Source: Pseudomonas sp. GM78 (GTDB lineage: Bacteria; Pseudomonadota; Gammaproteobacteria; Pseudomonadales; Pseudomonadaceae). Taken from it: a stretch of 45,166 bases of DNA. The DNA lies in assembly GCF_000282475.1 (NCBI RefSeq), contig NZ_AKJF01000133.1, positions 1 through 45,166 of the forward strand, written 5' to 3'. The notes beneath the pieces were generated by a model. The model was not told the DNA's origin. It ran no database searches and saw only the letters and a program-made list of their open reading frames with translations. Each line of letters begins with the position of its first letter. The stretch's first letter is position 1. This document shows positions 21,838 through 43,373 of this stretch, one piece after another. The position numbers and the translations under genes are program-made.

Positions 21838-21881
21838 TCGTCCACTTGGACGAGGCGGCTGGCGGGGGCTGGGGCTAGTTT
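21838..21881 (+). promoter_or_regulatory. Putative operator A with promoter of the rightward catabolic operon
   Basis: A perfect palindrome, CTCGTCCACTTGGACGAG at 21837-21854, lies in the divergent gap between the flavin reductase and aldehyde dehydrogenase genes. Its core is TCGTCC-ACTT-GGACGA (21838-21853). A possible -10 (TAGTTT, 21876-21881) follows after 22 nt, placing the palindrome centre near -42 of the start. Related sites at 25098, 33417 and 43330 support its reality. Confidence 0.6.
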
Positions 21882-21962
21882 GCAGTTCGGGGCGTTGTGC
21901 AATGACGGCCATGGTGGGTGCAGAGGTGTAGCGCTGGCCCTTGTAAAGTTGAGGAGGCACCA

Positions 21963-23399
21963 ATGAGTTGTGCAATTTCATCCGTCGACGGTCTGTCGGC
22001 CCTGTTGCTTGATCAAAAAACCGCGTTCAACGCCCAGGGTGCCGTCAGTGCGCCGCAACGGCGTGAACGAATCCAGCGCGTGATCGACATGCTGGTGGCG
22101 CACCACCAGGCGCTGGCAGAGGCCATGGATAGCGATTTCGGCGGTCGCCCCCAGGGGTTCTCGTTAATGAATGATGTGCTGGGCTCTTTGGGCTCGCTCA
22201 AACACGCGCGCGACCATCTGGAAGGCTGGATGCAGGACGAGCCTCGGCAAGTCTTCAGTCCCTACGATCATCTCGGCGCCCGCGCCTGGGTGATGTATCA
22301 GCCCAAGGGCACGGTGGGTATCCTGGGCACCTGGAACGCGCCGCTGTACACCTTGCTCAGCCCTTTGGCTTCGGCGCTGGCGGCGGGTAACCGGGCGATT
22401 CTCAAGCCTTCGGAAGTGGTGCCGCGGACGGCCGCGCTGGTGGCGAAACTGTTCAGCGAGCTGTTCGACCCGCTCGAAGTGGCCGTGGTCACCGGCGGTG
22501 CGGACCTGGCCCAGGCCTTCACGGCGCAGCCATTCGATCATCTGGTGTTTACCGGCAGCACCGCCGTGGCCAAATCGGTGATGCGAAATGCAGCCGATAA
22601 CCTGGTGCCCGTGACCCTGGAGCTGGGCGGGAAGTCGCCGGTCATTATCGGGCGCAGCGCCGAGCTGGGGACCGCGGCCTTTCGTATTGCCCTGTCCAAG
22701 ACCACCAACAGCGGCCAGGTCTGCATCAACCCGGACCTGGTCTACGTGCCGCGTGAGCAACTGGAAAGCTTCCTCGACGTGTTCGCCAGCGTTTACCGCG
22801 AATTGATCCCCGAGGTGAGTGACAACCCGGATGTGGTGGCGGTGGTCAACGCCCAGCACCTGGCCCGGGTTGAAAACCTGGTCGAGCAAGCCCGGCACGC
22901 TGGCGCCAGGGTCGAGAGCCTGCCTCACGCACAACCGGTCGATCCGCAAAACCGCCGTCGTCCGCTGCAGCTGGTGATCGACCCGCCTCAAGACAGCCTG
23001 ATCATGCACGAAGAAATTTTCGGGCCGGCGATGGTGGTATTGCCCTACGACGACGTCGAGCAGGTCATTGCCCATATAAACGGCCGCCCGCGACCGCTGG
23101 CCCTTTACTACTTTGGCAATGATGCCCGGGAGCAGGACCATGTGCTGACGCACACCTTGTCGGGCGGCGTCACCCTCAATGACGTGATGATGCATGCCGC
23201 CTTGCATGACGCGCCCTTTGGCGGTGTCGGCGCGTCGGGCATGGGGCACTATCACGGCCGCGAAGGCTTTATCGAGTTCAGCCATCTGCGCACGGTACTC
23301 AAGGCCCCGGAACACGATCCACGCCGCGAATGGGGTTTGCTGCCGCCCTACAGTGAGCACTTTCTCGCCGCGATGGTGGCGCAGATCACCCCGGACTGA
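21963..23399 (+). CDS. Aldehyde dehydrogenase (coniferyl-aldehyde dehydrogenase-like)
   Basis: This NAD(P)-dependent dehydrogenase turns an aldehyde into a carboxylic acid. The 478-residue chain starts at the ATG behind GAGGAGG and has N125 in GTWNAPL, the FTGST cofactor segment at 197-201, the general base E220 in LELGGK and the nucleophile C254 in GQVCINP. It is closest in feel to the short coniferyl-aldehyde dehydrogenase subfamily. In bile-acid degraders, aldolytic side-chain cleavage yields a steroid C22 aldehyde that an aldehyde dehydrogenase must oxidise; its lead position in this operon makes that a good hypothesis. It begins the rightward operon. Confidence 0.88.
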   Translation: MSCAISSVDGLSALLLDQKTAFNAQGAVSAPQRRERIQRVIDMLVAHHQALAEAMDSDFGGRPQGFSLMNDVLGSLGSLKHARDHLEGWMQDEPRQVFSPYDHLGARAWVMYQPKGTVGILGTWNAPLYTLLSPLASALAAGNRAILKPSEVVPRTAALVAKLFSELFDPLEVAVVTGGADLAQAFTAQPFDHLVFTGSTAVAKSVMRNAADNLVPVTLELGGKSPVIIGRSAELGTAAFRIALSKTTNSGQVCINPDLVYVPREQLESFLDVFASVYRELIPEVSDNPDVVAVVNAQHLARVENLVEQARHAGARVESLPHAQPVDPQNRRRPLQLVIDPPQDSLIMHEEIFGPAMVVLPYDDVEQVIAHINGRPRPLALYYFGNDAREQDHVLTHTLSGGVTLNDVMMHAALHDAPFGGVGASGMGHYHGREGFIEFSHLRTVLKAPEHDPRREWGLLPPYSEHFLAAMVAQITPD

Positions 23400-23460
23400 C
23401 CGGGGTTGCCGGCGTGAGTTATCCGACATGAAAAACACAATAAAAAACGGAATTCAGCAC

Positions 23461-25056
23461 ATGGAACACAACACTTTGCCACATGGCGACACTGCTGCTG
23501 CACCCTGCGCCGATGCCGTTGACGGTTGGCCGCGACGCCAGGTTCTCAAGGCCGGCGCTGTAGCGCTGGGCGTAGGGCTTCTGGGGCGTTTTGCCGATGT
23601 CCGTGCTGCCAGCGGGTTGTCGGCCAGCGACTATCAGAACCTGGATGCCTGGGCGATGGTCAAGGGCCTGCAGGCCGGCCACTTCAGCGCCGAGGACTTG
23701 CTGGCCGCGGCGATTGCCCGCTGTGAGCTGGTCAATCCGCAAATCAATGCGGTCAACATGCGCCATGACGATTATGCCCATGCGCTGCTGGCGGCCAGGC
23801 GCAAGGCCGCCACCCAGGCCCAGGGTTCGCTGGCGGGCGTGCCGATCCTGCTCAAGGATCTCAACACGTACCTGCAAGGTACGACCACCAGCAACGGCAG
23901 CCGTCTGTTCAAGGATGCGCCGCCGGCGAGCCTGACCAGCACCTTGATCCGCCGTTATGAACTGGCCGGGGCAGTACCTTTCGGCAAGGCCGCCAGCCCG
24001 GAATTCGGCCTGACCACGACCACCGAGTCGCTGGCCTGGGGGCAAACCCGCAATCCCTGGAACCTGGCGTTGAGCGCTGGTGGATCTTCCGGTGGCTCCG
24101 CCGCGGCGGTGGCTGCCGGCATCGTGCCGGTCGCCCATGCCACCGACGGCGGTGGCTCGATTCGCATTCCAGCCTCCTATTGCGGGCTGGTCGGGCTTAA
24201 ACCGACGCGCTACCGCACCCCAAGCGGGCCGACGCGCCTTGAAGGCTCGTTCGGTGCCAGTGTCGCCAACGTGGTCTCGCGCAGCGTGCGCGATACCGCC
24301 TTGTTCCTCGACGCCGGGCAGGGCCATGAGCCCGGTAGCCCGTATTGGACCCAGCCGTTGCCACGGTCCTATGTCGAGGAAACCGGCCGCGAACCCGGTC
24401 GTCTGCGGGTGGGCCTGGTGCGTGAGTCGCTGACCGGTGCGCCGTTGGACCCGGCCATTGCCAAGGTCCTGGATGAGACAGTCAAGCAGTTGCTCGGCCT
24501 TGGTCACGAGGTGGATGAACTGCGCTTGCCGATTCAGGCCCAGCAGTTGTTCGGCGCTCATGGAGTGGCGATCGGCAATTCCTTGCTGGCGATGGTCGAT
24601 GACCGTGAAAAGGCACTGGGGCGCACATTGGGGCCGCAGGATCTGGAAATCATCACCTTTGGTGTGCTGGAGCGAGCGAGCAAGGCCACGGGTGAGGGCG
24701 TCGTCCGCGCACGGCATGCGTTTGAAGACATCAGCATGGCCATGGAACAGCAGTTCGAGCGTTTTGATGTGATCCTCTCACCGGTCACCTCCAGCCTGAC
24801 ACCGGCATTGGGCGAACTCTCGCTCAACCAGCCCTACGAAAGCTACGCACGCAAGGCCATGGGCAGCGCCGGTTTCACCGTGCTGGCCAACGTCAGCGGG
24901 CAACCGGCCATTTCATTGCCGCTGGGCATGAGTGACAGCGGTCTGCCAGTGGGCATGATGTTCACCGCTCGCCTGGGCGCCGAAGACGTGCTGCTGCGAT
25001 TGGCTTCGCAACTGGAGCAGGACCGTCCCTGGGCCGCCAGGCGCGCAGCGATTTAA
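23461..25056 (+). CDS. Amidase-signature hydrolase with a Tat signal peptide
   Basis: The 531-residue protein belongs to the amidase-signature family, with the complete K132 / cis-S209 / S233 triad in [22 protein letters not shown] and [10 protein letters not shown]. Its N-terminus carries a twin-arginine motif (PRRQVLK, R25-R26), a hydrophobic stretch and an ADVRA-type cleavage site near residue 49, so it should fold in the cytoplasm and be exported. An in-frame ATG at 23428 is an alternative start. Export and cluster membership suggest it releases an amide-linked group before uptake. Deconjugation of glycine- or taurine-linked bile salts is an attractive but unproven idea. Confidence 0.85.
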
Positions 25057-25097
25057 GCCTGTAACGGCACCAGGGATGGCGCCGCGCAACTGTTCTC

Positions 25098-25141
25098 TAG
25101 TCCGCTTTGACGATGAATAATCGTTTGCTGCGTTCGATCAT
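25098..25141 (+). promoter_or_regulatory. Putative operator C with internal promoter before the hydroxylase
   Basis: TAGTCC-GCTT-TGACGA at 25098-25113 is an imperfect copy of operator A. It lies in the 132-bp gap between the amidase and hydroxylase genes. A possible -10 (GATCAT, 25136-25141) follows after 22 nt. This suggests a second regulated start inside the rightward gene series. Confidence 0.5.
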
Positions 25142-25188
25142 CAACCAAGGCTCGCGCAACCGCGCAACGAGATTGGGAGAACGAACGG

Positions 25189-26376
25189 ATGGACAGCATG
25201 CGAGTAAAAACGCGGGAAGAAATCCAACTGCTGGAACAGGCTCGGCGCCTGGTGCCGGCACTCAAGAACCGCACCGCGCGAGCTGATCGCGAGTTCCGGG
25301 TTCCTGACGAAACGATATACGAGCTGCAGCAGGCCGGTCTGTTGCGAGCGCTGCAGCCCCGGGCATTCGGCGGCTACGAGGTCGACCCGCGAACCTTTTT
25401 CGAAATCCAGATGATCCTCGCCGAAGGCTGCATGTCCACGGCATGGATCTACGGTGTGATGGGCGTACACCCCTGGCAGCTGGCGCGTTACCCGATCGAA
25501 GCCCAGCGCGACGTCTGGGGCCAGGATCAATCGACGCTGATTTCCTCCACCTACATGCCGGTGGCCAAGGTCACCGTGGTTGAAGGCGGCTACCGCATCA
25601 GCGGGCGCTGGGGATTTTCCAGCGGCAGCGAACACTGTCAATGGTGCTTGCTGGGTGGCGTACTGCCGGCCGATGGCGACCAGGCGGCTGAGCACGGTAC
25701 CTTCCTGATCCCGCGCAGCGACTACCGTATCGAGCATAACTGGGACGTCCTGGGGCTGCGCGGCACCGGCAGCCACGACATCGTGGTCGAGGATGCCTTC
25801 GTGCCGGCACACCGGGTGCAACGCACCAACAACAACACAATCGACGCAACGCCGGGACGCCTGGTCAACACCAACCCGATCTACGCCATTCCCTTTGCCC
25901 AGGTGTTCACCCGGGCGGTGTCCTCATCGGCCATCGGCGCCTTGCAGGGGGCGATCAACGAGTTTCGCGCCAGCGCCGCCGCGCACATCGGCAAACACGG
26001 GATGAAAACCGCCGATGATCCGGTGGCACAAACCACGGTGGCGGAGGCCACGATCACCGTCGACAGCCTGAGGCTGGTGCTTGAGCGCAACTACGCGCAC
26101 CTGATGCAACTGGCCGAGGCGGGCGAGTACCCGGACGTGGAAACCCGTTTGCTGTACCGCTACCAATCCTCTTATGTCACCAACATCTGCGCCGAGAAGG
26201 TCAACGAACTGCTGCGCTGCATGGCCGCCTCGGGGTTGTACAACACCAATCCGGTGGCACGCCTGTTCCGCGACCTGCACCAGGCGCGCGGGCATATCGC
26301 CAACAACTACATGGCCTTCAGTCGCAGCCTCGGAGCCGTGCAGATGGGCTTGCCCAACCCCGACCCGTACGTATGA
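25189..26376 (+). CDS. hsaA: Flavin-dependent phenol hydroxylase, HsaA/TesA1 type
   Basis: The 395-residue protein has the acyl-CoA dehydrogenase fold used by two-component flavin monooxygenases. Its features follow HsaA, which hydroxylates the phenolic ring A of 3-hydroxy-9,10-seco-steroids to a catechol. These include LPDET-like VPDETIYELQQAGLL, GGYEVDPRTFFE, the WGFSSGSEHC segment near residues 141-150, FLIPRSDYRI and GLRGTGSHDIVV. The catalytic glutamate environment of acyl-CoA dehydrogenases is absent, and it should use free reduced flavin from the reductase encoded at 20765. The related 4-hydroxyphenylacetate C2 oxygenases are the main alternative, but length and motif wording favour HsaA. 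Confidence 0.87.
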   Translation: MDSMRVKTREEIQLLEQARRLVPALKNRTARADREFRVPDETIYELQQAGLLRALQPRAFGGYEVDPRTFFEIQMILAEGCMSTAWIYGVMGVHPWQLARYPIEAQRDVWGQDQSTLISSTYMPVAKVTVVEGGYRISGRWGFSSGSEHCQWCLLGGVLPADGDQAAEHGTFLIPRSDYRIEHNWDVLGLRGTGSHDIVVEDAFVPAHRVQRTNNNTIDATPGRLVNTNPIYAIPFAQVFTRAVSSSAIGALQGAINEFRASAAAHIGKHGMKTADDPVAQTTVAEATITVDSLRLVLERNYAHLMQLAEAGEYPDVETRLLYRYQSSYVTNICAEKVNELLRCMAASGLYNTNPVARLFRDLHQARGHIANNYMAFSRSLGAVQMGLPNPDPYV

Positions 26377-26382
26377 GTCGTA

Positions 26383-26406
26383 CCCGGGCCTGCACGCAGG
26401 CCCGGG
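26383..26406 (+). other. Perfect stem-loop between hsaA-like and kstD-like genes
   Basis: A perfect ten-bp CCCGGGCCTG/CAGGCCCGGG stem with a CACG loop starts just after the hydroxylase stop codon. No T-run follows. It may stabilise the upstream mRNA or partly attenuate transcription. Confidence 0.5.
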
Positions 26407-26466
26407 CCTGCCAACCCCTGGCCGGCATGCCGGGATCTTTGCGAATACAGCCAAGGCACAAGAACA

Positions 26467-28176
26467 ATGACAGCTAAAGCTCAGCCTGTTTCTCACTATG
26501 ACGTGATCGTCGTCGGCTCCGGCGCAGGGGCAATGACCTCGGCGCTGTTTGCCGCCGACCAGGGTCTGTCGGTATTGGTTGTGGAAAAAAGCGACAAGTT
26601 CGGCGGCACGTCGGCGATCTCCGGCGGCGGCATCTGGATTCCCAACAACCATTATTTTGCTGCCAAGGGTGGTCAAGACAGTTTTGAACTGGCGCTGCGC
26701 TACCTCAAAGCGGCCACGGGTGAGCATGGCGATGAAAAGCGCTTGCGCGCCTACCTCAAACACGCGCCGCAGATGATCCAGGCCCTGGAACACACCAGCC
26801 ACGTGCGCTACGCCGTGGCGCAGAAATATCCCGATTATTACCCGCAACTGCCAGGCTCCCTGGCGGGCGGGCGCACCCTGGACCCGGAGTTGTTCGACAC
26901 CAGTCTGTTGGGTGACGAACTGGTGAACCTGCGCGCACCTTCACCTTCGACCCTGCTGATGGGGCGTATTGCCTGGACTGCCCGGCATGCGCACAAGGCC
27001 ATGTCCCGCTCGTTCGGCTGGCGCTTGCTGATCCTCGGCCTGATGCTGCGCTACAAGCTGGATTTCAAGTGGCGTCGCAAGAGCCGTCGCGATCGCCGCG
27101 CCGCCCTGGGCAGTTCCCTGGTTGCCTCCCTGCGCCGTTCCCTGATGGACCGCAACATCCCGTTGTGGCTCAACACCGACTTCCAGTCGCTGCTGACCGA
27201 GGATGGCCGCGTCAGTGGCGTGCAGGTCTGCCGGAACGGTGAGACGTTGCATCTGCATGCCCGGCGTGGGGTGATCTTCGGCTCTGGCGGCTTCGAGCAG
27301 AACCAGGCGCTGCGCGAGCGCTACCTGCCGCAGCCGACCCAGCGGGACTGGAGCGCCACGCCGCCGGGCAACAACACCGGCGCCGCGCTGGAGGCCGGAG
27401 TTGCGCTGGGGGCGGCAACGGCCCTGATGGACTGGGCCTGGTGGGCGCCGACCATTGCCGTGCCGGGCGAAGACAAGCCACGGGGCGTGTTTGCCGAGCG
27501 GGCATTCCCGGGGGCCCTGGTGGTCAACAGCCTGGGCCGGCGTTTCGTCAACGAGGCGGCCCCGTACCTGGAATTTGTCGACGCCATGTACCGCGACAAC
27601 CAGAACACCGGTGGGCAGTCGATACCGGCCTGGGTGATCTTCGATGGGCACTTTCGCTTCAACTACGCCATGGGGCCGTTGATGCCGGCCCAGGTCATGC
27701 CCGACAGCCGCCTGCGCAAGCAATGGCTCAATTCCCTGTACTTCAAGGCGGACAGCCTGTCGGCGCTGGCGGCGCAGATTGGCGTCGACGGTGCGGGGCT
27801 TGCGCAGACCGTGGCACGCATGAACGAGTTCGCCCGCAGTGGCGTCGATACCGACTTCGGCCGTGGCGGCAACATTTTCGACCGTTACTACGGCGACATG
27901 AATGTGAAGCCCAACCCGTGCCTGGCGCCGCTGAGCAAGGGACCGTATTACGCCATGCGCCTGGATGCTGGCGACATCGGCACCAAGGGCGGGCTGCTGA
28001 CCAACGAGCACGCCCAGGTCGTCAGTCAGGACGGCGAAGCGATTCCCGGCCTGTATGCCATTGGCAACTGCTCGGCGTCCGTGATGGGCACCAGCTATCC
28101 CGGCGCGGGCGGGACCCTCGGGCCAGCCATGACCTTTGGCTACATCGCGGCCAACCACATTGCCGCGCAACGCTGA
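26467..28176 (+). CDS. kstD: 3-oxosteroid 1-dehydrogenase (delta1-KSTD) family flavoprotein
   Basis: KstD introduces the 1,2 double bond into ring A of 3-ketosteroids with FAD, a step needed for ring opening. The 569-residue protein has the FAD motif GSGAG at 17-21, a second nucleotide-binding segment GVIFGSGGFEQN, and the C-terminal SYPGAGGTLGPAMTFGYIAA. There Y544 and G548 match the Tyr487/Gly491 pair known from Rhodococcus KstD1. A YPDYYP segment at 121-126 corresponds to the region of Tyr119. The size is within the family's range. The next gene encodes a second member of the superfamily, probably of different regiospecificity. Confidence 0.87.
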   Translation: MTAKAQPVSHYDVIVVGSGAGAMTSALFAADQGLSVLVVEKSDKFGGTSAISGGGIWIPNNHYFAAKGGQDSFELALRYLKAATGEHGDEKRLRAYLKHAPQMIQALEHTSHVRYAVAQKYPDYYPQLPGSLAGGRTLDPELFDTSLLGDELVNLRAPSPSTLLMGRIAWTARHAHKAMSRSFGWRLLILGLMLRYKLDFKWRRKSRRDRRAALGSSLVASLRRSLMDRNIPLWLNTDFQSLLTEDGRVSGVQVCRNGETLHLHARRGVIFGSGGFEQNQALRERYLPQPTQRDWSATPPGNNTGAALEAGVALGAATALMDWAWWAPTIAVPGEDKPRGVFAERAFPGALVVNSLGRRFVNEAAPYLEFVDAMYRDNQNTGGQSIPAWVIFDGHFRFNYAMGPLMPAQVMPDSRLRKQWLNSLYFKADSLSALAAQIGVDGAGLAQTVARMNEFARSGVDTDFGRGGNIFDRYYGDMNVKPNPCLAPLSKGPYYAMRLDAGDIGTKGGLLTNEHAQVVSQDGEAIPGLYAIGNCSASVMGTSYPGAGGTLGPAMTFGYIAANHIAAQR

Positions 28177-28185
28177 GGAGCTGCC

Positions 28186-30905: not shown

Positions 30906-30927
30906 CCCGATAGCCGAGTTTGTCACT

Positions 30928-32559
30928 ATGACCGCATGTTCCGCATTACCGGGCACCTTGACTGCCTGGAACCCGTTGCCCTTGTCGATTCCCGCCTTGC
31001 TGTTCGCCAGTGCCGAACGCTTCGCCGGCCGGGCGGCCATCGAGCAAGACGGTATAGCCACCGATTACCGTGATTTACCGGCATTGGCGCTCGGTGTCTG
31101 CCGCAGCCTGATGGCACTGGGAATCGAGGCGGGCGACCGCGTGGCGATCTGGGCACCGAACTGCCGCGATTGGGTGATCGCAGCCTTGGGCGTGCATTGC
31201 GCAGGGGCGGTACTGGTACCGATCAACACCCGCATGAAAGGTGCGGAGGCCGCCGACATCCTGACCCGCAGCCAGGCGCGTGTGTTGTTGATGCAGGGCG
31301 AGTTTCTCGGCCTGGACTACCAGGCGATGCTGGCGCCGCTACGCCCGGCCAGCCTGGAGCAACTGGTGGTCATGGGGCTGGCGCAACCGCGGTTGACCAC
31401 CGACCTTGGCTGGGACGGTTTTCTCGCCAGGGGCGAGCCGGTCAGTGAGGTGCAAGCCCGCCAGCGTGCGGTGGCGGTCGGTCCGCGGCACTTGTCGGAC
31501 TTGCTGTTCACCTCAGGCACCACGGGCAAACCCAAGGGGGTGATGAGCGCCCATGGGCAAACCCTGCGCGCGTACAACGAATACGTCAGGGTGATTGGCC
31601 TGCAGCCCGGTGACCGTTACCTGATCATCAACCCGTTTTTCCATGCCTTTGGCTACAAGGCCGGCTGGCTGACCTGCCTGCTGGCCGGTGCGACCATCCT
31701 GCCCCATGCGGTGTTCGACGCCGAAGCGGTGTTCCAGCGCATCGCCGCCGAGCGCATCAGCGTACTGCCGGGGCCCCCGACGCTGTACCTGTCGATGCTG
31801 GCGCACCCGCGCCTGGCCGAGACCGACCTGTCGAGCCTGCGCATTGCCGTGACCGGATCATCGACCATCCCGCCGGTGCTGATCGAACGCATGCGCAAGG
31901 AACTGGGAGTCGCCGTGGTGACCACTGCCTACGGCCTGACCGAATGTGGCGGCCTGGCAACCATCTGCAACCCGGATGATCCCGCCGACATCGTCGCCGC
32001 CACCAGCGGGCGGGCGATCGAAGGCACCGAAGTGTGCATCCGTTCGGCTGACAACCAGCCCGTGGCGGCGGGGGAGTCGGGGGAAATCTGCCTGCGCGGT
32101 TTCCACGTGATGCAGGGTTACTTCAACGACCCCGAGGCCACGGCCCAGGCCATCGATGCCGACGGCTGGCTGCACACCGGTGATATCGGCAACCTGGATG
32201 CCGAGGGTAACCTGCAGATCACCGACCGGCTCAAGGACATGTTCATCGTCGGCGGCTTCAACTGTTACCCGGCAGAGATCGAGGCGGGGCTGATCGAACA
32301 CTCGGCCATCGCCCAGGTGGCGGTGATCGGGGTGGCGGATGAGCGCATGGGAGAAGTGGGTTGCGCCTGCGTGGTGTTGCGCCAGGGCCGGGAACTGGAC
32401 GAGCCATCGCTGATCGCCTGGGCGAGGGAGCGCATGGCCAACTACAAGGTGCCGCGCCAGGTGCGGTTCTTCGAGGCGCTGCCGGTGAACGCCTCGAACA
32501 AGGTGGTCAAGAGCGAGTTGCGCGCAGCAGTGGCGGGCCAGGCCCGCTCCTGCCCTTAG
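30928..32559 (+). CDS. fadD3: FadD3-type acyl-CoA synthetase
   Basis: This 543-residue adenylate-forming ligase activates a carboxylic acid to its CoA thioester. The P-loop LLFTSGTTGKPKGV is at about 192-205, and the GWLHTGDIG and ITDRLKDM motifs and the catalytic K525 (NASNKVV) are all present. The NPFFHAFGYKAGWLTCLLAGATI and VLPGPPTLY segments are strikingly like FadD3. FadD3 activates the indanedione propanoate (HIP) left after steroid rings A and B are removed. The ATG at 30928 is preferred because the upstream extension of the frame lies inside the reductase gene. It ends convergently with the enoyl-CoA hydratase gene, overlapping by four bases. Confidence 0.83.
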   Translation: MTACSALPGTLTAWNPLPLSIPALLFASAERFAGRAAIEQDGIATDYRDLPALALGVCRSLMALGIEAGDRVAIWAPNCRDWVIAALGVHCAGAVLVPINTRMKGAEAADILTRSQARVLLMQGEFLGLDYQAMLAPLRPASLEQLVVMGLAQPRLTTDLGWDGFLARGEPVSEVQARQRAVAVGPRHLSDLLFTSGTTGKPKGVMSAHGQTLRAYNEYVRVIGLQPGDRYLIINPFFHAFGYKAGWLTCLLAGATILPHAVFDAEAVFQRIAAERISVLPGPPTLYLSMLAHPRLAETDLSSLRIAVTGSSTIPPVLIERMRKELGVAVVTTAYGLTECGGLATICNPDDPADIVAATSGRAIEGTEVCIRSADNQPVAAGESGEICLRGFHVMQGYFNDPEATAQAIDADGWLHTGDIGNLDAEGNLQITDRLKDMFIVGGFNCYPAEIEAGLIEHSAIAQVAVIGVADERMGEVGCACVVLRQGRELDEPSLIAWARERMANYKVPRQVRFFEALPVNASNKVVKSELRAAVAGQARSCP

Positions 32560-33341
32560 CGGCCCTCGAACTGCGCAGGCCTTTTCTCGATAAAGGCCTG
32601 CATCCCTTCCTTCTGGTCCCGCGAGGCGAACAGCAAGGCATTGGCCTTGCGCTCCAGCGCGAGGCCGGTCTCCAGCGGAGCATCCATGCCCGCGAGTATG
32701 ACTTCCTTGATCTGTTCGGCGGCCAGCGGCGGCATGGCGGCAATCAGCTGGGCCAGTTTCAGGGCATGGGTTTGTACCTGATCGTCATCCACCACCTCGC
32801 TGACCAGGCCGCTGACCCAGGCTTCTTCGGCGGTAATCGGCTGCCCGGTCAGGGCCATGCGCATGGCCTTGGCCTTGCCTACCGCGCGTACCAGGCGCTG
32901 GGTGCCACCAATGCCGGGCATGATGCCGATGCGGATCTCCGGTTGGCAAAACCGCGCGCTGCGCCCGGCCACGATGATGTCGGCGAGCATGGCCAGCTCG
33001 CAGCCACCGCCATAGGCGTAGCCGCACACGGCCGCTATCACGGGCTTGGGGCAATGCTGGATGGGTGCCCAGACCCGCTCGGTATGGCGCTGGTAGATAT
33101 CGATCGGGCCGACCCCGGCCAGGCTGTTGATATCGCCACCGGCGGCGAACACCTTGTCGCCTCCGGTCAAGAGGATGCAGCGCACCTCGGGATTGTCCCC
33201 CAGTTCGCTGAAGTACTGCGACAGCAGGGCCTGCAGCTCAAGGCTCAGGGCGTTGGTGGCGTGTGGGCGGTTAAGCCGCAGCAGGGCGACACCGGGGGTC
33301 GGGTACTCCAGCAGTACCGGCGCGGGCAGTGAGTCGGACAT
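32556..33341 (-). CDS. Enoyl-CoA hydratase/isomerase family protein
   Basis: The 261-residue crotonase-fold protein starts at the ATG behind GAGG; a TTG two codons upstream is less likely. Both glutamates of true hydratases are present, E115 in GGGCELAM and E135 in CQPEIRIGIMPG, along with the oxyanion-hole segment FAAGGDINSL. It should hydrate an enoyl-CoA in steroid side-chain or ring C/D oxidation. The mycobacterial ring-opening enzyme EchA20 is a more distant alternative. The gene is divergent from the SDR operon, sharing the control region with operator B. Confidence 0.87.
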   Translation of the reverse strand: MSDSLPAPVLLEYPTPGVALLRLNRPHATNALSLELQALLSQYFSELGDNPEVRCILLTGGDKVFAAGGDINSLAGVGPIDIYQRHTERVWAPIQHCPKPVIAAVCGYAYGGGCELAMLADIIVAGRSARFCQPEIRIGIMPGIGGTQRLVRAVGKAKAMRMALTGQPITAEEAWVSGLVSEVVDDDQVQTHALKLAQLIAAMPPLAAEQIKEVILAGMDAPLETGLALERKANALLFASRDQKEGMQAFIEKRPAQFEGR

Positions 33342-33416
33342 GGTCAACCTCAGGTCATGGGCACCAGCGGGCGGGCGCCGTTTGGCGGATTGTTGCGAGC
33401 GCGGCGCGCCGCTTCA

Positions 33417-33460
33417 TCGTCCGTTCAGACGACGTGGCCGGGCGACTTTGTCCCTAGAGT
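33417..33460 (+). promoter_or_regulatory. Putative operator B with promoter of the side-chain operon
   Basis: TCGTCC-GTTC-AGACGA at 33417-33432 differs from operator A by one arm base. A -10-like TAGAGT at 33455-33460 follows after exactly 22 nt, the same distance as at operator A. The site lies between the divergent enoyl-CoA hydratase and SDR genes. On the minus strand an AACAAT hexamer at 33389-33394 is similarly spaced, so both directions may be driven. Confidence 0.6.
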
Positions 33461-33490: not shown

Positions 33491-34276
33491 ATGAGTGGTC
33501 ACTCGGGGCTGGATTACAACGGCAAGGTGGTATTGGTCACCGGCGGAACCAAAGGCATAGGTGCGGGCATTGCCCGTAGCTTTCTCGCCGCGGGTGCCAG
33601 GGTGATCGTGTGTGGGCGCAACGCGCCGGAACAATTGCCAGGCGTGGAGGGCGCACGGGCGGACTTCATCGCCGCCGACGTGCGAGACCAGGTCTCCCTG
33701 CAATGCCTGTTCGACACTATCCGCAGCGACTACGGGCGCCTCGACGTGCTGATCAACAACGCCGGTGGCAGCCCGTCAGCCGACGCCGCGAGCGCCTCGC
33801 CGCGGTTTCATGAGGGGATCATCCGCCTCAACCTGATTGCCCCGCTCAACGTCGCCCAGCAAGCCAACCTGATGATGCAAACCCAGGACGAGGGCGGTTG
33901 CATCGTCTTTATCGGCAGCATCAGCGGGCTGCGCGCCTCGCCGGGCACCGCGGCCTATGGTGCGGCCAAGGCCGGGGTACTGGCGCTGGTGCAATCGCTG
34001 GCAGCGGAATGGGCGCCCAAGGTGCGGGTTGTGGCCGTGAGCCCGGGGCTGGTGCGTACCGAACTTTCACACGTGCACTACGGCGATGAAGCCGGTATCG
34101 CCGCCGTCAGTGCCGGTATCCCGGCAGGACGCATGGCCCTGCCGGAGGATATCGGCAATGCCTGTCTGTACATCGCGTCCAGGCTGGCTGGTTACGCCAG
34201 TGGATGCAATTTGTTGCTACATGGCGGCGGTGAACGCCCGGCTTATCTCAGTGCGGCGCAGGTCGCGCCGCACTGA
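33491..34276 (+). CDS. SDR-family oxidoreductase
   Basis: This 261-residue short-chain dehydrogenase has TGGTKGIG at 17-24, NNAGG at 89-93 and the catalytic S143, Y156 and K160. It leads the side-chain operon behind an AGGAG site. In actinobacterial steroid regulons, similar SDRs sit with the igr and FadD3 genes and oxidise ring-D or indane hydroxyls (IpdF and its neighbours). Sequence alone does not fix the position or the direction of the reaction. Confidence 0.8.
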   Translation: MSGHSGLDYNGKVVLVTGGTKGIGAGIARSFLAAGARVIVCGRNAPEQLPGVEGARADFIAADVRDQVSLQCLFDTIRSDYGRLDVLINNAGGSPSADAASASPRFHEGIIRLNLIAPLNVAQQANLMMQTQDEGGCIVFIGSISGLRASPGTAAYGAAKAGVLALVQSLAAEWAPKVRVVAVSPGLVRTELSHVHYGDEAGIAAVSAGIPAGRMALPEDIGNACLYIASRLAGYASGCNLLLHGGGERPAYLSAAQVAPH

Positions 34277-34333
34277 TCGACCCACGTCGGCGTTGCAGTA
34301 CCGGGCGCCGCTTTGAACACGCAGGAGACGAAC

Positions 34334-35311
34334 TTGGCTGATCCAGAATTGCTATCCAAAGTACGCGCCCTGGTTGGGCGCCAATACGGTCGCGTGAACG
34401 CCTGGGATGAAGTGAACGCACCGATGATTCGCCAGTGGTGCGAAGTCATCGGCCTTGAAAATCCGCTCTACACCGACCCCTTGACGGCAGCCAGCAGCTG
34501 CAACGACGGGATTATCGCGCCGCCACCCATGCTGCAGATCTGGTGCATGGAAGGCTTCCACATCAACAACTACGCCCCGGGCTCGACCACCGAGAACCCG
34601 TATGAAGTGCTTGGACTGATGGATGCCTACGGCTATCCGTCGGTGGTGGCGGTGAACTCCGAGCTGACCTTCGAACGCAACCTGCGCCTGGGTGAAAAGC
34701 TCTACTACACCACGCGCCTGGAGTCGGTCGGCGATGAAAAGACCACGGGCCTTGGCACCGGCTTTTTCGTCACCCTGGTCATGACCTACTTCTCGCAACA
34801 GGCCGCTGGCGACGAAAAGGTCGGCGAGCTGTTGTTCCGGGTCTTCAAGTTCCGCCCGGCCAGCGTGGAAAAGGTCGAGGCGCAGCCCCAGGCGAGCGTC
34901 GAACCGGTGGTGGCCAAGCGGCCGACCCCCGGCATGAGCGACGACACGCGGTTTTTCTGGGAAGGCTGCAAGCAAGGCCAGCTGTTGATCCAGCGCTGCA
35001 CCCAGTGCGCCACCTTGCGGCATCCGCCGGCACCGGTGTGTATCGAGTGTCACTCGTTCGACTGGGACACCCTGCAAGCCAGCGGCAAGGGGCGGTTGTA
35101 TTCCTTTGTGGTGATGCACTACCCGCAAGTGGCGCCATTCGATCATCCCAATCCGATCGGCCTGATCGAGCTGGACGAAGGCGTGCGCCTGATCGCCGGC
35201 CTGGTGGGCGTCAAGCGTGAAGACATCAGCATCGGCCAGCGTTTGCAGGTCGAATTCCAGACCTTCGACGACGATCTGGCGTTGCCGATGTTCCGGCCGT
35301 TGGCAGAGTAG
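34334..35311 (+). CDS. chsH2: Two-domain MaoC/DUF35 protein, ChsH2-like hydratase subunit
   Basis: Residues 1 to about 170 form a MaoC-like hot-dog domain. Residues from about 200 form a DUF35 module: a zinc ribbon with C222, C225, C236 and C239, followed by an OB fold. This is the layout of mycobacterial ChsH2, which pairs with ChsH1 to hydrate the last three-carbon steroid side chain. Its DUF35 part docks the Ltp2 aldolase. The predicted start is a TTG at 34334, six bases after AGGAG; another TTG at 34313 lacks this spacing. The ChsH1-like and Ltp2-like genes follow in the same operon. Confidence 0.85.
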   Translation: MADPELLSKVRALVGRQYGRVNAWDEVNAPMIRQWCEVIGLENPLYTDPLTAASSCNDGIIAPPPMLQIWCMEGFHINNYAPGSTTENPYEVLGLMDAYGYPSVVAVNSELTFERNLRLGEKLYYTTRLESVGDEKTTGLGTGFFVTLVMTYFSQQAAGDEKVGELLFRVFKFRPASVEKVEAQPQASVEPVVAKRPTPGMSDDTRFFWEGCKQGQLLIQRCTQCATLRHPPAPVCIECHSFDWDTLQASGKGRLYSFVVMHYPQVAPFDHPNPIGLIELDEGVRLIAGLVGVKREDISIGQRLQVEFQTFDDDLALPMFRPLAE

Positions 35312-35319
35312 GGGGCGGT

Positions 35320-36453: not shown

Positions 36454-36844
36454 AGACGTGCACACCGGCGAACAACTGCCCGAGCTGACGATTCCGATCA
36501 CGGTCGGCCTGATTGCCGGCGGTGCGATTGCCACCCGCGACTACTTTCCCGGCCACCATGACCTGGAGGCGGCTCGTGCGCTGGGTTCGTCGCATATCTT
36601 CATGAACATCCTGACCACCAACGGCCTGGTGCAACGCTTCATCGAGCAGTGGAGCGGCCCGCAGGTGCAGTTCCGTTCGCTGAAAATCAAGCTAGGCGCG
36701 CCGAACTACCCCGGTGACAGCATGATCTTCAGCGGCGAAGTGACCCATCAGGATGCTGCTACACGCACCCTGGAAGTGACCCTCAAGGGCAAAAACTCCA
36801 TGGGCAATCACGTGACCGGTACGGTCGCGCTGGTTCTGCCCTAA
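36425..36844 (+). CDS. chsH1: Single-domain MaoC hydratase, ChsH1-like
   Basis: The 139-residue hot-dog protein carries the hydratase-2 dyad D39-x4-H44 in ATRDYFPGHHD, so it should be the catalytic subunit. Its partner is the two-domain protein at 34334, which lacks a clear dyad. In mycobacteria the pair hydrates the C17-C20 double bond of the three-carbon steroid side chain. The frame starts inside the preceding acyl-CoA dehydrogenase gene; an alternative ATG lies three codons later. The aldolase gene follows after 19 bp. Confidence 0.85.
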   Translation: MTSMNTKRFEDVHTGEQLPELTIPITVGLIAGGAIATRDYFPGHHDLEAARALGSSHIFMNILTTNGLVQRFIEQWSGPQVQFRSLKIKLGAPNYPGDSMIFSGEVTHQDAATRTLEVTLKGKNSMGNHVTGTVALVLP

Positions 36845-36863
36845 TTCGCGGGAGACATCACAG

Positions 36864-38042: not shown

Positions 38043-38052
38043 GGAGCGTCTC

Positions 38053-39222: not shown

Positions 39223-39275
39223 GTCAGGCTGTACCCTTGATGCGAATAACAATAACGTCCCTTTCAGGTGAACGA

Positions 39276-40463
39276 ATGAGCGCAATCGAACAATTCAGGC
39301 AAGCGACGCGCGACTGGCTGGAGGCCAATTGCCCAGCGTCGCTGCGCACCGCCACTCCCGAGGGCGAGATGGTCTGGGGTGGTCGTCATGTAGCCTTTCC
39401 CAATGAAGACGCCCGCCTCTGGTTCGAGCGTATGCGCGACAAAGGCTGGTTCTGTCCGCAATGGCCCAGCGAGTATGGCGGTGGTGGACTGAGCGCCGAA
39501 TACAACGCGGTACTGGAAAGCGAACTGCGTCGGCTCAAATGTCGACCGGCGCAAATCAACCTGGGTATCTGGATGCTCGGTCCGGTGCTGCTGGAGTTCG
39601 GCAGCGAAGCGCAGAAGCAGGCGCTGTTGCCACCCATGTGCCGCGGTGAGGTGCGCTGGTGCCAGGGCTTTTCCGAGCCCAATGCCGGTTCCGACCTGGC
39701 CAGTTTGAAAACCTCGGCCATCGCCGATGGCGATGACTTCGTGGTCAATGGCACCAAGATCTGGACCTCCTACGGCGACAAATCCGACTGGATGTACGCC
39801 TTGGTGCGCACCGATCCCAAGGCGCCCAAGCACCAGGGCATCAGCCTGATCGTGCTGGACATGAAAAGCCCGGGAGTCAGCGTTTCGCCGATTGACCTGA
39901 TCAGCGGCAAGTCGGCGTTTTGCCAGGTGTTCTTCGACAATGTGCGGGTCCCGCAGAGCCAGTTGATCGGGCCGCTAAACGGTGGCTGGAACCTGGGCAA
40001 GAGCCTGTTGCAGCACGAGCGCAGGGCCATGTCCAAGTTTGGCGAATTCAGCCTGCCGACACACTTTCATCTGCTGCCGTTGATCGAACGTTACCTGCCA
40101 GACAGCCAGTCGCCCGCTGACCAGGCCCTGCGCGCCCGCGCCCAGGCCTGCGCAATGGACGAACATGCCTACAACCTCACCGTGCAGCGCATGGGCGAGG
40201 AGGCCAGGGCTGGCCTGGACACCAGCGCGATCATGGCGATCATGAAGCTGGTGCATACCGAGCAGGAGCGCGACAAGTTCGAGATCCTCCTCGATGCCCT
40301 CGGCTACCGCGCGTTGGGCCTTGAAGGCGAGCCGTTCAGCAGCGAGGAACTGGCCGTCACCCGAGGCTGGCTCAACAGCTTTGCCCTGACCATCTCTGGC
40401 GGTTCGTCGGAAGTGCAGTTGAATGTCATCGCCAAGCGGGTCTTGAACCTGCCGAGTGTTTAA
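39276..40463 (+). CDS. Acyl-CoA dehydrogenase, catalytic type (second pair)
   Basis: From the ATG at 39276 (after AGGTG) the protein has 395 residues. CQGFSEPNAGSDLASLKTSA, IWTSYGDKSDWMY and the probable base in LLQHERRAMS are present, and the C-terminus ends SGGSSEVQLNVIAKRVLNLP. It looks like the catalytic member of a second steroid-type heteromer, related to FadE26/FadE32-like proteins. Its partner is probably the next gene. Whether it acts on a five-carbon side chain or on a ring C/D intermediate cannot be told from sequence. Confidence 0.82.
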   Translation: MSAIEQFRQATRDWLEANCPASLRTATPEGEMVWGGRHVAFPNEDARLWFERMRDKGWFCPQWPSEYGGGGLSAEYNAVLESELRRLKCRPAQINLGIWMLGPVLLEFGSEAQKQALLPPMCRGEVRWCQGFSEPNAGSDLASLKTSAIADGDDFVVNGTKIWTSYGDKSDWMYALVRTDPKAPKHQGISLIVLDMKSPGVSVSPIDLISGKSAFCQVFFDNVRVPQSQLIGPLNGGWNLGKSLLQHERRAMSKFGEFSLPTHFHLLPLIERYLPDSQSPADQALRARAQACAMDEHAYNLTVQRMGEEARAGLDTSAIMAIMKLVHTEQERDKFEILLDALGYRALGLEGEPFSSEELAVTRGWLNSFALTISGGSSEVQLNVIAKRVLNLPSV

Positions 40464-40476
40464 GGGGAGTGTGACC

Positions 40477-41631
40477 ATGAGTCTGGTGTATAGCGAAGAG
40501 CAACGCCTGTTGGCGGACAGTGCTCGCGAGTTCCTGGCGGCGCGCAGCCCGGTAGCGGCGCAGCGGCGCCTGCGAGACGAGGCCTGCGAACCCGGTTACG
40601 ACCCGCAACTGTGGCAGGAGACAGTTGGCCTGGGCTGGAGCGCGATACCGTTTCCCGAGGCGCTGGGTGGACTGAATTTTGGATGCATGGGCCTGGGGCC
40701 GATTTTCGAGGCCATGGGTAGAAACCTGTCGGCCTCACCGCTGTTGTCCAGTGTGGTGCTCGGTGGTTCGCTGATTCATCTGGCAGGCTCTGCGGCGCAG
40801 CAGGATCAGTGGCTGACGGCGTTGATCAGCGGCGAACGGCGCCTGGCCCTGGCCCTGGATGAAAAACCGCGCCATGGGCCTGTGCACACGGCGCTGACGG
40901 CCACCGCCGAGTCCGGTGGCTATCGTCTGGACGGCGAGAAGTTCTTCGTGATCGATGGCCTGGGTGTCGATGCCTACCTGGTCACTGCACGAACCGACGG
41001 CCAGGCGGGTGAAGAGCAGGGCATCAGCGTGTTCCTGGTGCCGGCAGACACGCCGGGGCTGCAGGTCAGTGCACTGTCGTTGATCGACTCGCGCAATTAC
41101 GCGCAGCTGCGTTTCAGTGCGGTGCAACTGGGCAGCGAAACCTTGCTCGGTACCGTTGGGGCAGCGTGGCCAGCCCTGGATGAAGCGCTGGATCGGGGGC
41201 GTGCGTGCCTGGCTGCGGAGTTGCTTGGCGCCGCCGAGCAGTTGTTCGCCCTGACCCTGGATTACCTCAAGACCCGCGTGCAGTTTGATGCCTTGATCGG
41301 CTCGTTCCAGGCCTTGCAGCATCGTGCGGCGCGCTTGCACGTGGAACTGCAACTGGCCCGCAGCGCCGTGATGGCGGCGTTGTCAGCGCTCGACGACAGC
41401 GCCTTGAGCGCGGCTGAACGTGGGCGCCTGGTGAGCCTGGGCAAATGGAAAGCGGGCGAAGCCGCTGCCCGGATCAGCAATGAAGCGGTGCAGATGCACG
41501 GCGGTATCGGTGTCACCGACGAACTGGATGTGGGCCTTTATCTCAAGCGAATTCGCGTGGTCCAGGCGTGTCTGGGTGACAGTGATTTCCAGTGTGCGCG
41601 CTACGCCGCTTTCGAGTCTTTGGAGAAGTGA
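40477..41631 (+). CDS. Acyl-CoA dehydrogenase subunit lacking the usual catalytic glutamate (second pair)
   Basis: The 384-residue protein starts at the ATG behind GGGGAG and keeps the fold, including VQFDALIGSFQALQHRAARLHVE and VQMHGGIGVTDELDVGLYLKR. The C-terminal segment reads RIRVVQACLGDSDFQ, without the typical catalytic or FAD-binding YEG element. It is probably the structural half of a heteromer with the protein from 39276, as in FadE27- or FadE33-type partners. The gap to the previous gene is 13 bp. Confidence 0.82.
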   Translation: MSLVYSEEQRLLADSAREFLAARSPVAAQRRLRDEACEPGYDPQLWQETVGLGWSAIPFPEALGGLNFGCMGLGPIFEAMGRNLSASPLLSSVVLGGSLIHLAGSAAQQDQWLTALISGERRLALALDEKPRHGPVHTALTATAESGGYRLDGEKFFVIDGLGVDAYLVTARTDGQAGEEQGISVFLVPADTPGLQVSALSLIDSRNYAQLRFSAVQLGSETLLGTVGAAWPALDEALDRGRACLAAELLGAAEQLFALTLDYLKTRVQFDALIGSFQALQHRAARLHVELQLARSAVMAALSALDDSALSAAERGRLVSLGKWKAGEAAARISNEAVQMHGGIGVTDELDVGLYLKRIRVVQACLGDSDFQCARYAAFESLEK

Positions 41632-41635
41632 AAAC

Positions 41636-43324
41636 ATGAAGCTGGAACAGTGGCGCAACGCCTGGCAGCAGTTGATCGGCCCGGGATCGCCGTACGAGGT
41701 GGTGACTTCGCCCAACGGTAACCTGCGGTATTTTCGCCATGCACCACCCAACCTGCTCGATGCCATCGATGCAGGTCGCGTGCACGGTGACCGTGAGTTT
41801 CTGGTGTGGGAGCAGGAGCGGCTGACGTTCGCCGGATTTTTCGACCAGGTCGATCGGCTGGCCGCACAACTGTCCCAACGTTTTTCGGTGAAGCAGGGCG
41901 ATCGGGTGGCTATCGCCATGCGCAACCAGCCGGCCTGGCTGGTGGCCTTTGTCGCGGTGCAACGGTGCGGCGCGGTGTGTGTGCCCCTGAACAGTTGGGG
42001 CCTGCGCGACGAGCTGTTCCATGGCCTGCAGGACAGTGGCGCCCAGGTGCTGGTGTGTGACGAGCAGCGCCTGCGCCTGCTGGCGGGCGACGTGCTCAAC
42101 GAGGGCCTGGTCAGCATTGTGGTCGGTGTACAGGAAGGGCAAGCGCTTGCGCCCAACTGCCAGCGTTTTGAGGCATTGATCCAGGCCCCGGTGCTGGCGT
42201 TGCCGGCCATCACCATCGACCCCGATGACCCGGCGCTGATCCTCTATACCTCCGGTACCACCAGTCGGGCCAAGGGTGTGCTGTCAAGCCACCGCGCCAT
42301 TTGCCAGGCGCTGACGGCCCTGGAGTTCCAGTCAGCGTTCTGCGCTGTGAGTTCGCCCGAGCGCATCCAGGCGGTGATCGACAGCGGCCTGGCGCCGACC
42401 AACCTGATGGCGGTGCCGCTGTTCCATGTCAGCGGCCTGCACGCGCAGTTTCTGCTGGCCCTGCGCAGCGGACGACGCTTGTTGCTGATGTACAAGTGGG
42501 ACGTCGACAAGGCCTTTGACCTGATTCGCGACGAGCGCTGTACCCAGTTCAACGGTGCACCGGTGATGATGCAGCAATTGCTCGGCTCGCCACGCTTTGA
42601 CAGCACCGACAGCGACAGCCTCTACGGCCTCGGCCTGGGAGGGGCGCTGGCGCCGAGCCGGCTGCTGGCGCAGATCAGCAAGCGCAAGCCCAAGGCGATT
42701 GGCGGCAGTGGTTACGGCCTGACCGAGAGCAACGGCATCGGCGCGGCGGTGGGTGGCGACCAGTTCGTGTACAAACCCGATTCGGTGGGCTGGCCGCTGC
42801 CGATCGTTGATGTGTGTATCGGTCCCGACCCGTATTCGCCGCTGCCAGCAGGGCAAAGCGGCCTGATCTGGCTGCGTTCGCCAACGCTGATGAGCGCCTA
42901 CTGGCGCTTGCCCGAAGCCAGTGCCCAGACGTTGCAGGACGGCTGGCTGGACACCGGTGACATCGGCCTGCTGGATGACGAGGGCTTCCTCTACATCACC
43001 GACCGGGCGAAGGACCTGATCAACCGTGCGGGGGAAAAGATTTCCGCCAGTGAAGTGGAGTCCTGTATCTGCGAAATGCCCGGGGTCGTTGAAGCGGCCG
43101 CCTTTGCGGTGGCCGATGAGGAGTTGGGTGAGCGCCTGGTGCTGGTATTGCGCAGCGAACTTGATCCGGCGCCGACCCGGGAGCAGGTGTGTGCCTTTAT
43201 CGGCCAGCGCCTTGCCGCCTACAAGGTACCAGCCGAGGTACATGGTTTTCAGGAGCCGCTGCCACGTAATGCGTCGGGCAAATTGATCAAGGCACAGATC
43301 CGTGAATTATTGGTCAGTGCCTGA
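41636..43324 (+). CDS. Steroid-type acyl-CoA synthetase
   Basis: This 562-residue adenylate-forming enzyme has the P-loop LILYTSGTTSRAKGV near residues 201-215, with the unusual TTSRAKG in place of TTGxPKG. GWLDTGDIG, ITDRAKDLINRAGEKIS and the catalytic K549 (NASGKLI) are also present. It starts four bases after the preceding stop. It would attach CoA to a steroid side-chain carboxylate before dehydrogenation by one of the upstream pairs. Together with the FadD3-type enzyme the cluster has two ligases, matching separate side-chain and ring C/D activation steps. Confidence 0.85.
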   Translation: MKLEQWRNAWQQLIGPGSPYEVVTSPNGNLRYFRHAPPNLLDAIDAGRVHGDREFLVWEQERLTFAGFFDQVDRLAAQLSQRFSVKQGDRVAIAMRNQPAWLVAFVAVQRCGAVCVPLNSWGLRDELFHGLQDSGAQVLVCDEQRLRLLAGDVLNEGLVSIVVGVQEGQALAPNCQRFEALIQAPVLALPAITIDPDDPALILYTSGTTSRAKGVLSSHRAICQALTALEFQSAFCAVSSPERIQAVIDSGLAPTNLMAVPLFHVSGLHAQFLLALRSGRRLLLMYKWDVDKAFDLIRDERCTQFNGAPVMMQQLLGSPRFDSTDSDSLYGLGLGGALAPSRLLAQISKRKPKAIGGSGYGLTESNGIGAAVGGDQFVYKPDSVGWPLPIVDVCIGPDPYSPLPAGQSGLIWLRSPTLMSAYWRLPEASAQTLQDGWLDTGDIGLLDDEGFLYITDRAKDLINRAGEKISASEVESCICEMPGVVEAAAFAVADEELGERLVLVLRSELDPAPTREQVCAFIGQRLAAYKVPAEVHGFQEPLPRNASGKLIKAQIRELLVSA

Positions 43325-43329
43325 CTGAT

Positions 43330-43373
43330 TAGTCTTTCCGGACGATGTTCTCCCCAGCAGATCAGGAACAATG
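43330..43373 (+). promoter_or_regulatory. Putative operator D with promoter of the DUF1329 gene
   Basis: TAGTCT-TTCC-GGACGA at 43330-43345 begins five bases after the ligase stop codon. A -10-like AACAAT at 43367-43372 follows after 21 nt. The layout repeats that of the other three sites and gives the DUF1329 gene its own start within the regulon. Confidence 0.5.

Follow-up and report, generated by a model that had tools for sequence, protein, structure and literature searches.

A TesR-type activator is likely to bind a 16-bp dyad, its predicted operator, and to switch on 8–13 steroid promoters in Pseudomonas sp. GM78. TesR is already known as an activator; the new element, derived from sequence, is a candidate operator with a promoter position. 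The dyad consensus is TMGTCY-N4-RGACKA, usually with TG after it. An earlier note on this DNA had proposed that the operons of the cluster have a dyad near −42 in common and form one steroid regulon, with a class II activator such as a LuxR-type dimer as its reader; the computable tests support this as a prediction. The sites and genes of the window (the whole 45,166-nt stretch that was analysed) are given below; HsaA-, HsaB-, HsaC-, KstD- and IpdA-like proteins are called '-like' because their NCBIfam matches lie below the curated cut-offs.

21807..21822, minus strand: dyad TAGTCCGTTGAGACGA, then TG; exact match in the leader of the leftward hsaB-like operon
21779..21784, minus strand: −10-like hexamer AATACT, gap of 22 from dyad 21807
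21838..21853, plus strand: dyad TCGTCCACTTGGACGA, facing the rightward aldehyde dehydrogenase gene; weak −10
21876..21881, plus strand: −10-like hexamer TAGTTT, gap of 22 from dyad 21838, agreeing with TATAAT at only 3/6 positions
25098..25113, plus strand: dyad TAGTCCGCTTTGACGA, then TG; leader of the hsaA-kstD-like operon
25136..25141, plus strand: −10-like hexamer GATCAT, gap of 22 from dyad 25098
33417..33432, no strand assigned: dyad TCGTCCGTTCAGACGA, flanked on each side by a −10-like hexamer
33455..33460, plus strand: −10-like hexamer TAGAGT, gap of 22, rightward to the short-chain dehydrogenase (SDR) gene and side-chain operon
33389..33394, minus strand: −10-like hexamer AACAAT, gap of 22, leftward to the enoyl-CoA hydratase gene
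43330..43345, plus strand: dyad TAGTCTTTCCGGACGA, then TG; leader of the DUF1329 gene
43367..43372, plus strand: −10-like hexamer AACAAT, gap of 21 from dyad 43330
20765..21805, minus strand: HsaB-like flavin reductase (NCBIfam below curated cut-off), opening the leftward operon; longest ORF, real start further in
21918..23399, plus strand: aldehyde dehydrogenase gene (longest ORF), under dyad 21838
25189..26376, plus strand: HsaA-like oxygenase subunit of 3-HSA monooxygenase (NCBIfam below curated cut-off)
26467..28176, plus strand: 3-ketosteroid 1-dehydrogenase-like (KstD-like) protein (NCBIfam below curated cut-off)
32556..33347, minus strand: enoyl-CoA hydratase/isomerase, downstream of dyad 33417 in the leftward direction
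33491..34276, plus strand: short-chain dehydrogenase, opening the side-chain operon
34313..35311, plus strand: ChsH2-like protein (dehydratase plus ChsH2 OB/zinc domains), side-chain operon
43371..44795, plus strand: DUF1329 gene (longest ORF; by reading, an ATG near 43414 is the more likely start)

The four dyads listed earlier (21838, 25098, 33417 and 43330) are all present, and the hexamers TAGTTT, GATCAT, TAGAGT and AACAAT start 22, 22, 22 and 21 nt after them, as claimed. All four are exact, but the list was incomplete, having overlooked the fifth exact dyad at 21807–21822(−). The idea that dyads tie the operons together holds in that the dyad is shared, but one assignment changes: by position, the leftward hsaB-like operon is faced by dyad 21807, and 21838 belongs to the gene on its right.

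The exact pattern TMGTCYN5GACGA occurs at 22 places in the 7.29-Mb genome. Of these, 5 fall on the 45-kb contig, which makes up 0.6% of the genome, and another 3 on contig C58, the carrier of kshA-, hsaC- and ipdA-like genes. All eight leader sites among these lie at steroid genes, while the remaining 14/14 fall within called coding genes. Beyond the window, too, matches gather at steroid genes of GM78, the outcome that the earlier note had proposed to look for. At C58:29009 and C58:46470, two of the eight, the leader site touches the start of a longest ORF; the true start of that gene probably lies further inside.

The promoter geometry was examined in oriented sites, which were reduced from 220 to 200 by removing 20 in coding sequence and to 117 by removing look-alike flanks; the final set contains asymmetric sites only. 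In a gene-blind test, a −10-like hexamer was found 21–23 nt downstream in 103/117 sites and on the mirror side in 2/117, although many of these sites are orthologous promoters and therefore represent fewer than 117 independent events. The gap was 22 nt in 72 sites, 23 nt in 26 and 21 nt in 5, and a −35 with at least 4/6 agreement to TTGACA was present in 6/117. The base following the dyad is T in 98% and the next is G in 97%. For the eight leader sites of the GM78 genome, 0/20,000 base shuffles equalled the agreement with a −10 at a gap of 22 nt. Among symmetric non-coding sites (84 stretches), 9/18 have a −10 on at least one side; the other nine, all of the 21838 type, have none of comparable quality on either side. 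Given a −10 at a gap of 21–23 nt, the dyad centre falls at −42.5 (taking the hexamer as −12 to −7), the position of a class II activator, and the spacing together with the poor or absent −35 fits the centre near −42 suggested before.

The lux box of LuxR-type class II activators is likewise centred at about −42.5. The resemblance extends to a dyad overlapping the place of an absent −35 and to a sigma-70-like −10, whereas the dyad here is TMGTCY-N4-RGACKA and the expected ligand would be a steroid rather than an acyl-homoserine lactone. A TesR/TeiR-type protein, in which a GAF-like and a PAS-like sensor would be joined to a GerE/LuxR DNA-binding domain, may sense a steroid or a breakdown product. 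Its dimer would occupy the dyad from −50 to −35, centred at −42.5, replace the missing −35 and recruit sigma-70 RNA polymerase to the −10 located 22 nt on, in a class II mode of activation. A single regulator could in this way turn on ring A/B, ring C/D, side-chain and transport genes, and probably its own operon.

The dyad is conserved in orthologous leaders of Pseudomonas, Halopseudomonas, Marinobacter, Comamonas and Pandoraea, a point on which the earlier proposal could have failed. Of 80 hsaA loci, 79 were usable for the leader test, and a dyad with at most one mismatch was found 20–160 nt before hsaA in 68/79, compared with 0/79 for the reversed-pattern control. Three of the 11 misses (L097–L099) have a slightly more distal dyad, at 164–176 nt, and the hsaA leaders of L109–L111 and L113 carry only versions with 2–3 mismatches. 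Across the 80 loci, non-coding matches numbered 232 versus 19 for the reversed pattern. In Comamonas suwonensis, a dyad with a −10 at gap 22 precedes tesB, and the DUF1329 and hsaA genes are also preceded by dyads; the best that the Comamonas tesA1-side leader offers is a poor, two-mismatch candidate.

A LuxR-type gene lies at C58:29079–30329(−) in the same genome, two genes from kshA, and it adjoins one of the C58 dyads, in agreement with the earlier expectation of such a regulator near other sites. The Pfam LuxR/GerE domain PF00196 matches its C-terminal residues 327–380 with 24.2 bits (cut-off 23.5), and NCBIfam gave no above-cut-off match. The predicted fold combines GAF/PAS-like sensors with a C-terminal HTH (mean pLDDT 72, <50 over residues 370–416). 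The PDB matches shown by Foldseek, mostly GAF/PAS sensor proteins, have whole-chain TM-scores of 0.20–0.36 and were therefore used for domain types only; a profile search of solved structures matched HTH regions eight times and a histidine kinase once, over a short stretch. The C. suwonensis homologue, 47% identical over 371 aa, closes a cluster that opens with hsaC/tesB-ipdA-ipdB, which is the published tesB-to-tesR layout; the comparison is with that layout and not with the TA441 sequence itself.

Homologues of the regulator occur in 36/80 hsaA loci and in 21/149 genomes of the genus; identity to the GM78 copy is 55–100% in 12 of the 21 and about 40% in the other 9. The 21 genomes with the regulator hold 7–17 exact dyads (median 13), versus 0–8 (median 3) in the 128 without (Mann-Whitney p 6e-14 over 149 genomes, GM78 included, related genomes not being independent). 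The ranges touch: G106, with the regulator, has 7, and six genomes without it have 7 or 8. This co-occurrence is confounded with the pathway, since hsaA (E ≤ 1e-120) is found in 20/149 genomes, each of them one of the 21 that carry the regulator. Homologue and dyads were found together in Pseudomonas, Marinobacterium, Comamonas and Pandoraea. The homologue set comprised 65 distinct proteins with at least 200 aligned residues and a matching ORF; 64 entered the helix comparison (one ORF >600 aa was omitted), and another alignment used 31/65. The helix NTARAHLR is kept in 56/64. The distant homologues of Haliea read HTARAQLK, and its 5 exact dyads equal background. The helix argument is nevertheless given little weight because a Zoogloea MAG, whose single homologue found is partial with a helix (HTARSQLR) unlike the others, has 14 exact dyads, though Haliea fits.

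Chance palindromes in GC-rich leaders would account for loose matches, which are common: with up to two mismatches, TMGTCYN5GACGA has 49 matches in the window against a shuffle mean of 27, with 0/100 shuffles reaching 49. The exact leader matches of the GM78 genome, however, lie only at steroid genes, and the leader/coding split, the mirror-side −10 control and the reversed-pattern control rule this explanation out, leaving it a negligible probability. The dyad could also be the operator of a KstR-like TetR-type repressor, as the earlier note had allowed, with a dimer blocking the promoter until a CoA-thioester metabolite frees it. A TetR dimer would fit a dyad of 16 bp. In actinobacteria, this pathway is described as being under the TetR repressors KstR and KstR2 (PMC6678751, in the portion available); their regulons resemble the one predicted here in having many steroid genes under a dyad-binding regulator. 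The TetR alternative is disfavoured because the −10 spacing is fixed and the −35 nearly always missing, features that suit an activator and that a repressor site does not need. Moreover, a review reports, in its accessible part, that bile acid-degrading Proteobacteria are without KstR homologues (PMC8399759), and no TetR domain was detected by Pfam in 40 proteins (20 of the window and 20 of C58, covering part of the C58 genes). We consider a repressor very improbable. EdcR of Caenibius tardaugens offers a proteobacterial parallel in that a palindrome lies in steroid-gene promoters, but it is a TetR-type repressor with a different sequence and a dyad over the −10 (PMC8700777, in part).

Another activator may read the dyad, the LuxR gene being merely a neighbour. 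The regulator always accompanied the pathway in the genomes searched, and dyad binding by TesR is a prediction; in addition, two C58 genes (L023:10680–11354 and 17404–18069) start like response regulators, as judged by eye, and the Zoogloea MAG combines dyads with its deviating homologue. Against this stand the joint presence of TesR homologue and dyads in four genera and the conserved helix. The AraC-type gene at 13215–14270 was rejected as the cluster's own regulator, being present in 149/149 genomes with or without dyads; it falls just beyond the flanks of the 80 hsaA loci, which are thus uninformative about it. A different activator appears unlikely on these grounds, and a TesR-type protein is the preferred candidate.

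In Comamonas testosteroni, TesR is a positive regulator needed to induce tesB-tesR, tesA1-tesG and tesA2-ORF18, according to the available parts of PMC6895838 and PMC13101464. The GM78 regulator shares with TesR/TeiR the C-terminal LuxR-type HTH and, through its C. suwonensis homologue, the position at the cluster end, and TesR/TeiR is described in print as a positive regulator of the same genes; unlike there, the regulator is here linked to a predicted operator and promoter position. No TesR/TeiR operator is named in the literature searched, as far as its accessible text goes, and Pruneda-Paz 2004 and Gohler 2008 could still contain one. For TeiR, a polar location in the membrane and kinase activity have been reported (Gohler 2008, cited through parts of PMC6678751 and PMC8399759), whereas the sequence here predicts a soluble GAF/PAS-LuxR protein. 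No transmembrane-like stretch was seen in it (highest 19-residue Kyte-Doolittle mean 1.32); two Comamonas homologues reach 1.65–1.75 and look alike in hydropathy, which therefore does not separate them from the GM78 protein. Pfam found no kinase domain, a result that does not refute the reported TeiR kinase activity.

On balance, and with less assurance than for the GM78 promoters themselves, we favour a joint reading in which an ancient 'tes box'/TesR pair would govern the aerobic breakdown of steroids in Beta- and Gammaproteobacteria alike. The regulator would be a soluble GAF/PAS-LuxR protein that binds DNA directly at −42.5, with no membrane-kinase cascade; its own operon would be driven via a variant box, TAGGCC-N4-GGACGA, and some boxes would fire two divergent promoters. 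A named regulator with a predicted operator of exact promoter geometry makes the mode of action of TesR directly testable, and bears on the claim of TeiR as a membrane kinase. It has been repeatedly stated in print that tesR-like genes are confined to C. testosteroni (PMC6895838, in the part available); the homologues in 21/149 genomes of the genus, together with the TeiR-like genes that a review (seen in part) had already noted in P. stutzeri Chol1, speak against that statement. A dyad promoter may serve as a steroid biosensor part, and the pattern provides a search string for steroid operons in unannotated genomes. In GM78, the composite of dyad, TG and −10 with at most three mismatches has 54 matches on both strands versus 30 for the reversed control, and with at most two it has 12 matches in 7.29 Mb, 10 of them on the two steroid contigs.

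The earlier note had placed four 16-bp palindromes in the window, at 21838, 25098, 33417 and 43330, and all were found there, with the -10-like hexamers TAGTTT, GATCAT, TAGAGT and AACAAT beginning 22, 22, 22 and 21 nt after the dyad end. A fifth exact match (TMGTCYN5GACGA) had been overlooked. It lies at 21807-21822 on the minus strand, oriented towards the leftward hsaB-like operon, and is followed directly by TG and by AATACT at a gap of 22 nt, and since it had played no part in deriving the spacing rule, it serves as a held-out confirmation.

The spacing was examined blind to gene positions, with orientation taken solely from the asymmetry of each site (TAGTC upstream, GACGA downstream). 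The loci examined held 220 oriented sites (200 non-coding), from which we kept 117 with flanks <60% alike, although many of these are orthologous promoters and thus not independent events. The mean -10 log-odds peaked at +1.22 at gap 22, with -3.2 at the second-best offset and values between -5.5 and -7.1 throughout the mirror side. A hexamer with at least 4/6 matches, including A2 and T6, stood at gap 21-23 in 103/117 sites, compared with 2/117 on the mirror side. The dyad is directly followed by T (98%) and then G (97%), and a -35-like hexamer was seen in only six of the 117. Taking the -10 hexamer as -12 to -7, the dyad spans -50 to -35 and is centred at -42.5, in keeping with the proposed centre near -42. 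Symmetric sites, with GACGA in both halves, were weaker for the -10 than asymmetric ones: among 18 non-coding examples, five had a -10 on both sides, four on one side and nine on neither, all nine of the 21838 type. Boxes of the 33417 type may fire in both directions, as -10 hexamers flank both sides in 5/9.

Within the 7.29-Mb GM78 genome the exact pattern occurs at 22 places: the five in the window (contig C133), three on C58, the second steroid contig (29009, 46470 and 57458), and 14 elsewhere, all within called coding genes. The eight on the steroid contigs are leader sites (two touch the start of the longest ORF), and their gap-22 score exceeded all 20,000 base shuffles. The leader matches gather at steroid genes, as the earlier note had proposed to check by a genome scan. 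C58 carries kshA (KshA_C match above cut-off), genes for an HsaC-like dioxygenase and an IpdA-like CoA-transferase subunit (NCBIfam matches under cut-off), ChsH2-like and thiolase genes, DUF1302 and an MMPL exporter; the names IpdB and IpdC rest on gene order and reading, without a family match. A composite pattern (dyad, TG and -10, up to two mismatches) gave 12 matches, of which ten fall on the two steroid contigs, together 107 kb or 1.5% of the genome; the result is descriptive and no independent test, as the pattern was tuned on loci including both contigs. The composite also reads the 33417 dyad leftward and adds four weaker boxes on C58, each with a 3/6 match to the -10:

C58:27277, before kshA
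C58:33912, before the YCF48-MMPL-tesR gene run
C58:49322, before a thiolase gene
C58:57508, before an MFS gene

The box is conserved in orthologous leaders, another check the note had named. In 80 hsaA neighbourhoods, non-coding dyads with up to one mismatch numbered 232, against 19 for the reversed pattern, and such a dyad lies 20-160 nt before hsaA in 68/79 usable loci (control 0/79). Comamonas suwonensis has dyads before tesB/hsaC, the DUF1329 gene and hsaA, so the box is kept at several orthologous promoters between Beta- and Gammaproteobacteria, and in a Pandoraea genome 15/18 exact dyads sit in a 99-kb stretch of C6, the contig that encodes the regulator. Against conservation, the hsaA leaders of four loci (L109-L111, L113) have only forms with 2-3 mismatches, and the Comamonas tesA1-side leader offers only a poor candidate. 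The hsaA boxes of Craterilacuibacter and Crenobacter (L103-L105, L107) read TAATCCAATCAGACGA, with an upstream half that varies in a consistent way.

A regulator gene of the kind the note had suggested looking for nearby, tesR (416 aa, LuxR/GerE domain), has its 3' end just short of the C58:29009 box. Homologues occur in 36/80 hsaA loci (one at 88% identity, 27 at 65-69%, one at 58%, seven at 36-40%) and in 21/149 genomes of the genus, own included (12 at 55-100%, nine at about 40%). The 21 have 7-17 exact dyads (median 13) versus 0-8 (median 3) in the other 128 (p 6e-14), a co-occurrence confounded by hsaA, whose 20 host genomes are all among the 21. Thirteen genomes outside the genus, picked via their loci, all have a homologue (E <= 1e-12) and 5-24 exact dyads. 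In C. suwonensis the homologue (47%) closes the tesB-ipdA-ipdB cluster, like the published layout running from tesB to tesR (PMC13101464). The helix NTARAHLR is present in 56/64 aligned homologues; Haliea, whose dyads are not enriched, has HTARAQLK, and the partial homologue of a Zoogloea MAG with 14 exact dyads has HTARSQLR. The AlphaFold model (mean pLDDT 72) comprises GAF-like and PAS-like domains and a C-terminal HTH, and the Foldseek matches listed are mostly GAF/PAS sensors. Eight of the 21 genomes (G015, G042, G077, G092, G107, G128, G130, G137) carry two or three tesR copies, one in G015 with an internal stop; all eight have 12-17 exact dyads, and the paralogues may therefore share one box.

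On the best reading, TesR would bind the box as a dimer centred at -42.5 and, on sensing a steroid signal, would recruit polymerase to promoters without a -35. Self-activation of tesR is likely, because the variant TAGGCC-N4-GGACGA precedes the tesR gene run on C58 and tesR in two further loci (172 nt upstream of the ORF in L039, 2.6 kb in L060); the copy in L091, the fourth, has no tie to tesR. YCF48-like and MMPL exporter genes lie upstream of tesR on the same strand of C58 (L024:9079-13753, minus strand) behind a near-consensus box, which suggests that tesR is self-activated and co-expressed with the exporter.

TesR/TeiR is a positive regulator needed to induce three steroid gene clusters (PMC6895838). 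According to a review, the mechanisms are for the most part unknown, and P. stutzeri Chol1 has TeiR-like genes, the deletion of one of which delayed growth on cholate (unpublished, in PMC8399759). A LuxR-type class II regulon is a known sort of system; of the proposed operator we found no description in the literature searched, the two main TeiR papers lying outside the reach of that search.

The AraC gene in the window (13215-14270) was considered as cluster regulator and rejected; it is present in 149/149 genomes of the genus and is therefore a backbone gene, which suggests that the steroid island meets the core chromosome just to its right. DUF1329 and DUF1302 genes lie on the steroid contigs (window 43371-44795; L025:9388-11127) and are adjacent, downstream of a box, in C. 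suwonensis (L198); they may take part in moving steroids into or out of the cell. At 2436-2916 of the window stand four tRNA genes (Arg, His, Leu, His), both tRNA-His with the same anticodon.
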